A program made the translations under genes and the position numbers. From positions 1,166,001-1,230,000 of the forward strand of contig NZ_AP023212.1 in assembly GCF_016593255.1 (NCBI RefSeq): a stretch of 64,000 nt of DNA, read 5' to 3'. Position 1 is the first letter of the stretch, and every line of letters starts with the position of its first letter. Positions 43,746 to 45,581 of the stretch are shown here, piece by piece. The notes beneath the pieces are model-generated. The model saw nothing but the letters and a program-made list of their open reading frames with translations, was not told the origin of the DNA and did not search any database. Origin of the DNA: Hydrogenimonas urashimensis. Lineage in GTDB: Bacteria; Campylobacterota; Campylobacteria; Campylobacterales; Hydrogenimonadaceae.

Positions 43746-43796
43746 GACGCCACCGTTTTATCAAAATTTTTTCATTATCTCACAGGAGTCACGTTT

Positions 43797-44531
43797 ATGC
43801 AGCAGATCGATATCAATTCGGACGAATTCCAGGCGGAATTGGAAAAGACCTGGAAATTCGTCGAAAAAGTCAACAATCAGTTCGGTTTCGTCCAAAATCC
43901 CGACGCGGAGATCAACGAAGGGGTCGCCATGGGACTGGCCCGCAATAGAATGATCTACGGCAAACGCTACTGCCCCTGCTTCATGGTCATCGGTGAAACA
44001 CCCGAGGAGCGCAAAGCGGCCGACAACCGCATCTGCCCCTGCAAACCGGCACTGGAGAAAGAGATTCCCGAACAGGGCCACTGTCACTGCGGCATCTTCT
44101 GCACCCCCGAATATGCCGCCAGGCACGCCAAAGAGGAGGCGATCGAAGAGGCGGTTCACCTCCACTCCCGCGGCCTGAGCAAAGAGGAAGCGCAGCTGCT
44201 GGTCGAAAAGGAACAGCTCGACGGCGACGAACTCGAAGCATTGTTGGAGGCCAGAGAGCTGGGCATGGTCTCTTTCGAACTGATCGATGTAAGGGAGCCG
44301 ATGGAGTTTCAGATGGGACACATCAAGGGTACCGACAAGCTTTGGCCGACCTCCCGGTTCTACGACTGGTTCGAAAAGATTCAGAACAAGAAAGAGGACC
44401 GCATGATCCTCTACTGCCACACCGGAAGCCGGAGCTACCAGGTCCAGCATGTCATGAAAGCACAGGGGTTCAAACATATCGGCAACCTGACCTACGGCAT
44501 CATCGCCTTCAACGGGGAGATAGAGCGCTAA
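43797..44531 (+). CDS. Ferredoxin-thioredoxin reductase catalytic domain fused to rhodanese
   Basis: A 244-residue fusion. Residues about 10-105 are FTR-catalytic-like with three CxC pairs: CPC at 59-61, CPC at 80-82 and CHC at 96-98, plus Cys102; the spacings (18 and 13) are longer than in plant FTR (16 and 8). A helical linker (about 110-155) leads to a rhodanese domain with active Cys207 in LYCHTGSRSYQ and LIDVREPMEF. It could move electrons from ferredoxin to a persulfide or thioredoxin-like partner. No FTR variable subunit adjoins. Two genes follow closely. Confidence 0.85.
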   Translation: MQQIDINSDEFQAELEKTWKFVEKVNNQFGFVQNPDAEINEGVAMGLARNRMIYGKRYCPCFMVIGETPEERKAADNRICPCKPALEKEIPEQGHCHCGIFCTPEYAARHAKEEAIEEAVHLHSRGLSKEEAQLLVEKEQLDGDELEALLEARELGMVSFELIDVREPMEFQMGHIKGTDKLWPTSRFYDWFEKIQNKKEDRMILYCHTGSRSYQVQHVMKAQGFKHIGNLTYGIIAFNGEIER

Positions 44532-44535
44532 AGCG

Positions 44536-44967
44536 ATGGCTGCCTCTCCCCTCTTTGGCCACCGCTTCACCGTCCCCGAAAAGGCGATCGACTTCAACGG
44601 GCACGTCGGCAATGTCAACTACCTGCAATGGATGGTCGAAGCGGCCGCCGCCCACTCCGAATCGGTGGGCTGGGATTTTGAACGCTGTATAAAGGAGACG
44701 GGCGGCACGTGGGTCGCCAAATCCCATCATATCGAATATCACCGACCCGCATTCGCCGGCGAGAAGCTGCAGATAGAGACCTGGCTCGATTCGATCGAAA
44801 AGATCAAAGCGGTGCGCCGCTATCGTATCACGAGGATCTCCGACGGCACGCTCCTGTGCGAAGGCAGAAGCGAATGGATCTTCGTCCACGCCGAAACGAT
44901 GCGGCCGGCGCGTATTCCCGAAGCCGTCGTCCGGGCCTTCCGCCAAGAGGGAGAAAAGAGAACATGA
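44536..44967 (+). CDS. Hotdog-fold acyl-CoA thioesterase
   Basis: A 143-residue 4HBT-type thioesterase: VPEKAIDFNGHVGNVNYLQWMVEAAAAHSE holds the substrate Asp-x-x-x-H-V-x-x-x-x-Y-x-x-W pattern, with HHIEYHRPAFAGEKLQIETWL. It begins 4 bases after the FTR-rhodanese gene and overlaps the DUF2238 gene. Acyl substrate unknown. Confidence 0.85.
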   Translation: MAASPLFGHRFTVPEKAIDFNGHVGNVNYLQWMVEAAAAHSESVGWDFERCIKETGGTWVAKSHHIEYHRPAFAGEKLQIETWLDSIEKIKAVRRYRITRISDGTLLCEGRSEWIFVHAETMRPARIPEAVVRAFRQEGEKRT

Positions 44968-45581
44968 AACATTCCGCTCCTGCACACTATTTTCCCCATC
45001 TTCTTCTGGGCGGCTACATCATTCTTTTCCTCCTCTGCGCCATCGATCCCCTCGACAAAGCCGTCTGGATCGCGGAAAACCTGACCGTTCTGCTGGTCGT
45101 GGTGCCACTGGTACTCACCTACCCGAAATTCCGCTTTTCCAACACCGCCTACGCCCTGATGAGCGTCTGGGTCTACATGCACACGGTCGGCGGACACTAC
45201 ACTTTCGCGAAGGTCCCTTTCGACCTCGTCAACGACCTTTTCGGATGGGAACGCAACAACTACGACCGCATCGCCCACTTCTCGGTCGGCTTCTACGCCT
45301 ACGCCATCGCCGAACTGATCGACAGAAAACGGCTCGTTGCAAACCGCATCATGCTCTTTCTCTTTCCCGTCTTCTCCATCGTCACGATCGCGGCGCTTTA
45401 CGAGATCGTCGAGTGGATCGCCGCCGTCTCCCTCAATCCTCAGGCGGGGGCCGACTACGTAGGGGCACAGGGGGATGTCTGGGATGCCCAGAAGGATATG
45501 CTATGCGACACGCTGGGCGCCGTGTTCGCTACTTCGATCTATCTACTGACACAGAGGCAATCCCTGACCCAACGGCGTTAA
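44964..45581 (+). CDS. DUF2238 (YjdF-like) membrane protein
   Basis: A 205-residue protein with about six membrane helices, a HTVGGHYTFAKVPFDL motif, RNNYDRIAHFSVGFYAYAIAELIDRK and YEIVEWIAA, plus GDVWDAQKDMLCDTLGAVFA: all hallmarks of DUF2238. Conserved His, Asp and Glu in the membrane suggest metal binding or catalysis; function is unknown. Start overlaps the thioesterase stop (ATGA). It converges with murG (4-base overlap). Confidence 0.88.
   Translation: MKHSAPAHYFPHLLLGGYIILFLLCAIDPLDKAVWIAENLTVLLVVVPLVLTYPKFRFSNTAYALMSVWVYMHTVGGHYTFAKVPFDLVNDLFGWERNNYDRIAHFSVGFYAYAIAELIDRKRLVANRIMLFLFPVFSIVTIAALYEIVEWIAAVSLNPQAGADYVGAQGDVWDAQKDMLCDTLGAVFATSIYLLTQRQSLTQRR

Follow-up and report, generated by a model that had tools for sequence, protein, structure and literature searches.

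A ferredoxin-thioredoxin reductase domain fused to a rhodanese in Hydrogenimonas urashimensis and other Campylobacterota

The fusion gene and its surroundings

The window analyzed here, a stretch of 64,000 nucleotides from Hydrogenimonas urashimensis (contig NZ_AP023212.1, positions 1,166,001 to 1,230,000), carries on its plus strand an open reading frame of 244 aa plus stop (43797-44531), which begins with ATG and has a Shine-Dalgarno-like AGGAG (43784-43788; read in the sequence) 8 bases upstream of the start codon. Pfam recognizes two domains in the product, and only these two: the catalytic domain of ferredoxin-thioredoxin reductase (FTR; FeThRed_B, PF02943) over residues 14-119 (43836-44153; 128.7 bits, E 1e-37, cut-off 22) and a rhodanese (PF00581) over residues 145-238 (44229-44510; 61.4 bits, E 1e-16, cut-off 22.2). 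A flavoprotein domain of the NAD(P)H:disulfide oxidoreductase type is absent from the chain. Residues 120-144 (44154-44228) form a linker, part of which is helical in the predicted structure and part of which is conserved in the alignment. Given that the reading frame is unbroken in the 117 fused copies at the Campylobacterota loci examined, the fusion is not a frameshift artefact. Among the best 80 of 437 matches in a contig scan, a Hydrogenimonas MAG encodes a protein of 92% identity. At one locus (L117 3850-4893, genome G039), a fusion appears to be broken, either by a frameshift or by a sequence error. Opposite the fusion gene lies an antisense open frame of 285 aa (43761-44618, minus strand), which is without support as a gene and is probably a by-product of codon usage.

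Two genes follow on the same strand and are probably co-transcribed with the fusion. The first, starting 4 bases past it, encodes a hotdog thioesterase of the 4HBT or acyl-ACP thioesterase type (44536-44967), and the second, overlapping the thioesterase gene, encodes a DUF2238 membrane protein (44964-45581). It had been proposed in an earlier note on this DNA that the fusion heads a short operon with these two genes. They are indeed directly downstream, but the arrangement is local to the lineage: the thioesterase is found in this position in one relative only (L033; L007 and L012 are covered as short loci only), and in L033 and L034 DUF2238 has the opposite orientation. Consequently, the thioesterase/DUF2238 operon was rejected as a functional context, being poorly kept even in close relatives.

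Catalytic residues and fold of the two domains

The FTR half contains three CxC pairs, CPC at residues 59-61 (43971-43979), CPC at 80-82 (44034-44042), and CHC at 96-98 (44082-44090). Their conservation was judged from 60 fusion sequences, obtained by reduction at about 86% identity and the addition of two divergent fusions; in this set, all six cysteines and His97 are invariant. The CPC/CPC/CHC pattern is present in 116 of the 117 fused copies, the remaining copy being unread by the pattern. From the homology to plant FTR, we take Cys59, Cys80, Cys82, and Cys96 to be the ligands of a [4Fe-4S] cluster and Cys61 and Cys98 to form the redox-active disulfide. Four residues past Cys98, nearly all Campylobacterota members retain an extra Cys102 (44100-44102); the solved FTR and FDR sequences align without a cysteine at this position. 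TGA stops that fall inside the FTR matches at two loci (L126 and L127) were considered as selenocysteine codons, but they are reading-frame ends and lie outside the motif.

The best PDB sequence matches of the FTR half are 7pwe (E 1.5e-8) and then 4tpu (E 7e-8), and that of the rhodanese half is a Francisella rhodanese, 6mxv. An AlphaFold2 model built from the 60-row alignment has a pLDDT of 93.8 and a pTM of 0.62; because of the latter, the relative placement of the two domains is uncertain although the pLDDT is high. Foldseek with this model retrieved the FTR fold (7pwe, 1dj7, 4tpu, 2pvg, and 7bzk, each with a probability of 1.00) as well as PDB rhodaneses. The domain identities, the single 244-residue chain, and the order of its cysteines, as first described, are thus upheld by sequence, Pfam, alignment to solved chains, and fold. 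The possibility had been raised that the CxC pairs belong to an unrelated zinc-binding family. A zinc or other metal site is excluded by the PF02943 score, by the alignments with FTR and FDR structures, by the fold matches, and by the FTR order of the six cysteines and His97, which together leave this explanation a negligible probability.

The intervals between the CxC pairs, 18 and 13 residues, had been said to exceed those of known FTR. Numerically this is correct, as counts from the alignments give 16 and 8 for plant FTR (7bzk) and 14 and 12 for both the Methanosarcina (4tpu) and the Desulfotalea (7pwe) proteins; the fusion thus has X18/X13 rather than the X16/X8 that is canonical for heterodimeric FTR. 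However, stand-alone FTRs of Campylobacterota range from 11/12 up to 20/13, and the spacing therefore has no bearing on function. Likewise, the variable subunit was said not to be nearby, and PF02941 was found in none of 298 Campylobacterota genomes, the window's own included, in a search that did match the control, Synechococcus. Yet this carries little weight since the variable subunit is reportedly confined to oxygenic phototrophs (PMC9025218) and its lack is to be expected elsewhere.

In the rhodanese half, Cys207, Gly210, Ser211, and Arg212 are invariant among the 60 fusions. The active loop of the window's protein, CHTGSR (residues 207-212; 44415-44432), is of the CxxGxR type, and C..GSR occurs in 112 of 112 fusions, with the general form C[H/L/Y/F][T/S/V/A]GSR. 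Free-standing relatives almost always have CR[T/S]G[N/S/H/M]R (two exceptions, four unread). The missing arginine after the active cysteine is a near-fixed difference, which may change the sulfur donor.

These features bear on an explanation in which some thiolation or cofactor pathway receives its sulfur from the rhodanese, and the only task of the FTR half is to resolve the disulfide left by sulfur transfer, just as thioredoxin resets the disulfide of ThiI-type enzymes. The same architecture would fit, the rhodanese appears from its loop to have been kept active, and the NCBIfam matches ranked below cut-off include MoeZ-type and other sulfurtransferase rhodaneses. However, no thiolation or cofactor gene recurs beside the fusion, and the loss of the arginine, while it hints at a different substrate, does not single out a pathway. 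Such a role is considered unlikely.

Fused and split pairs and their gene neighborhoods

The fusion is genuine, and it is widely distributed among environmental Campylobacterota. Among the 298 sampled genomes, PF02943 is present in 101, and a search with its own alignment found the fused rhodanese subfamily in 97. Both are present in 94 genomes, FTR only in 7, rhodanese only in 3, and neither in 194. The profile search for the domain pair that had been suggested for this phylum thus finds both domains in 94 genomes and, counted from the FTR and rhodanese tables, an intact fusion in 87. The evidence lies in these counts themselves rather than in a significance test, given that co-occurrence partly reflects shared ancestry, which inflates any p-value. 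No fusion was found in the viral contigs searched, and among plasmids one Sulfurovum record has the domains as two neighboring genes.

At eight loci (L032, L127, L130, L132, and L141-L144), FTR and rhodanese are encoded by adjacent, unfused genes on one strand, and in several genomes (G219, G221, G225, and G264) a split pair exists alongside a fusion. The eight pairs suggest that the link between FTR and rhodanese predates or outlives the fusion. Quick trees place the main fused rhodaneses in one clade (SH-aLRT 99) and the Nautiliales-like fusions in a separate one (SH-aLRT 100); in the rhodanese tree, seven of the eight split pairs share a supported clade. Parsimony gives up to three or four changes, but the starred branches force only one, which is compatible with a single origin. 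That the two proteins are paired in both fused and unfused form is strong evidence that FTR and rhodanese act together.

The genes around the fusion differ among lineages, whose labels here (Nautiliales-like and similar) are inferred from gene content. In Sulfurovum-type loci, a gene for a small lipoprotein without a Pfam family directly precedes the fusion (40 loci), nearly touching or overlapping it; upstream of the fusion, at L059 4681-5991 and about 40 such loci, there are often also genes for DoxX and for a small, secreted, Cys-rich protein (GKCGEGKCG-like). In Nautiliales-like loci, the fusion comes after a second, stand-alone FTR. In Nitratifractor-type loci, it lies downstream of DsbD and sometimes of a rhodanese that belongs to the fused subfamily but stands free; overall, 10 of 80 loci have DsbD (cluster 11), usually at position -1 or -2. 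These neighbors suggest thiol redox chemistry but point to no single sulfur pathway. SoxY is present in 68 genomes, nearly all of which have FTR; since many genomes with FTR, among them that of the window, have no SoxY, a part in the Sox system was rejected.

In an alternative reading, the substrate of the FTR half would be a protein with a thioredoxin fold, either a thioredoxin or DsbD on its cytoplasmic side, with the rhodanese serving as a docking or regulatory module or working independently. In its favor, the FTR and FDR enzymes known so far act on thioredoxin-like proteins (PMC6262447), DsbD precedes the fusion in Nitratifractor-type loci, and the seven genomes with FTR only have it as a stand-alone protein. 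However, the linkage to DsbD is limited to a subset of loci, and no fusion has lost the active loop of the rhodanese, which argues against mere docking. This alternative is regarded as somewhat unlikely. An argument for the model set out below comes from the window's genome, whose NADPH thioredoxin reductase is of the ordinary kind (345 bits, slightly above the cut-off); FTR is thus not needed there for the general reduction of thioredoxin.

Other FTR genes were met in the survey. A second FTR, a stand-alone protein of 112 aa, is encoded outside the window (G000:C1:1114934-1115227, minus strand; L002 1495-1833), between a copper-type P-type ATPase and a Dabb-type gene, which is followed by a CcoS-like gene (named by eye); the FTR of a genome of the same genus (L159) has the same neighbors. 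In two separate families, a saccharopine-dehydrogenase-type gene, possibly a carboxynorspermidine synthase, adjoins a stand-alone FTR (L119 2975-4539 and L125 1421-3064; also L114, L116, and L117). FTRs of a third class, some 207-219 aa long, have a CHCALFG motif and a C-terminal region that is not a rhodanese (L122 3975-4598, L123 4287-4946, and L124 3735-4382). Finally, a DUF7897 protein (PF25448; E 1e-198 in L113) is repeatedly encoded downstream of the FTR genes of one lineage (L113 6182-7951, L114-L117, and L130).

A possible ferredoxin-to-persulfide route and its known relatives

Taken together, these findings have led to a model in which the fusion is a ferredoxin-dependent disulfide reductase of the FTR type with a dedicated rhodanese, reducing a persulfide or disulfide held on Cys207. 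This reading is tentative and is given a probability of about 0.45. The analysis itself shows the two domains, the conservation of their catalytic residues, and the close genomic link between them; cluster ligation, electron source, persulfide substrate, and sulfide product are drawn from what is established for the chemistry of the two families. Ferredoxin would deliver single electrons to the [4Fe-4S] cluster held by Cys59, Cys80, Cys82, and Cys96, and the cluster would reduce the Cys61-Cys98 disulfide. The rhodanese would take sulfane sulfur from a persulfide, a polysulfide, or a similar donor and load it onto Cys207. The FTR dithiol would then attack the persulfide on Cys207, or else a mixed disulfide remaining after sulfur transfer, so that sulfide is released and Cys207 is freed. 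The reduction of a persulfide by one chain, as was first proposed, is plausible, and the tight linkage of FTR and rhodanese across genomes, unfused pairs included, makes it more likely.

Published work provides parallels for this model. Among working enzymes, the NADH persulfide reductases come nearest, their C-terminal rhodanese having been proposed to shuttle sulfane sulfur (PMC7969121), and the mechanism proposed for sulfane sulfur reduction by the cluster of MBS drew partly on FTR chemistry (PMC7684303). CoADR was found over the cut-off in none of the 298 genomes, at a cut-off so strict that no control genome reached it either. That the fusion represents the general system of free-living Campylobacterota, a ferredoxin-driven persulfide reductase using neither flavin nor NAD(P)H, is a broader claim and should be held a little more loosely than the model itself.

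If the model is true, Campylobacterota of vents and sediments would have a direct route from ferredoxin, which serves their carbon metabolism as a low-potential electron carrier, to persulfides inside the cell. The fusion would then be a flavin-free counterpart of the CoA-persulfide reductases, and the FTR center would have a job beyond the regulation of thioredoxin. As the gene is short and common in the phylum and its product looks soluble, the question is directly testable. Annotation pipelines already name both parts, and no published FTR-rhodanese protein was found in the open-access literature searched; the pair is common in the phylum yet apparently unstudied.

Fusions of FTR with rubredoxin or glutaredoxin are already known, as are those of rhodanese with other sulfur enzymes. 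The FDR of Methanosarcina acetivorans (4tpu; its chain is named Rubredoxin in the PDB) resembles the fusion in having an FTR domain with six cysteines in the same order and an extra C-terminal stretch, but its partner is not a rhodanese, its spacing is 14/12 rather than 18/13, and identity in the structural match is 21%. The Desulfotalea psychrophila protein (7pwe) is likewise a single chain combining FTR with a thiol-sulfur domain; however, a glutaredoxin precedes the FTR (matched at chain residues 85-186), whereas in the fusion a rhodanese follows it. Plant and cyanobacterial FTRs (1dj7, 2pvg, and 7bzk) share the fold of the catalytic chain and the CPC/CPC/CHC motifs but have FTRv as a partner, a 16/8 spacing, and no rhodanese. 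On the rhodanese side, BpPRF (5ve3) also joins a rhodanese to a sulfane-sulfur enzyme, yet the persulfide dioxygenase-rhodaneses of this family oxidize sulfur with O2 rather than reduce it. In CoADR-RHD/Npsr (3icr and 6pfz), as in the fusion, a reductase carries a single C-terminal rhodanese, for which a hand-over of sulfane sulfur has been proposed; there, however, the reductase is an NAD(P)H flavoprotein rather than a ferredoxin-linked iron-sulfur enzyme, and the two proteins are homologous in the rhodanese only.
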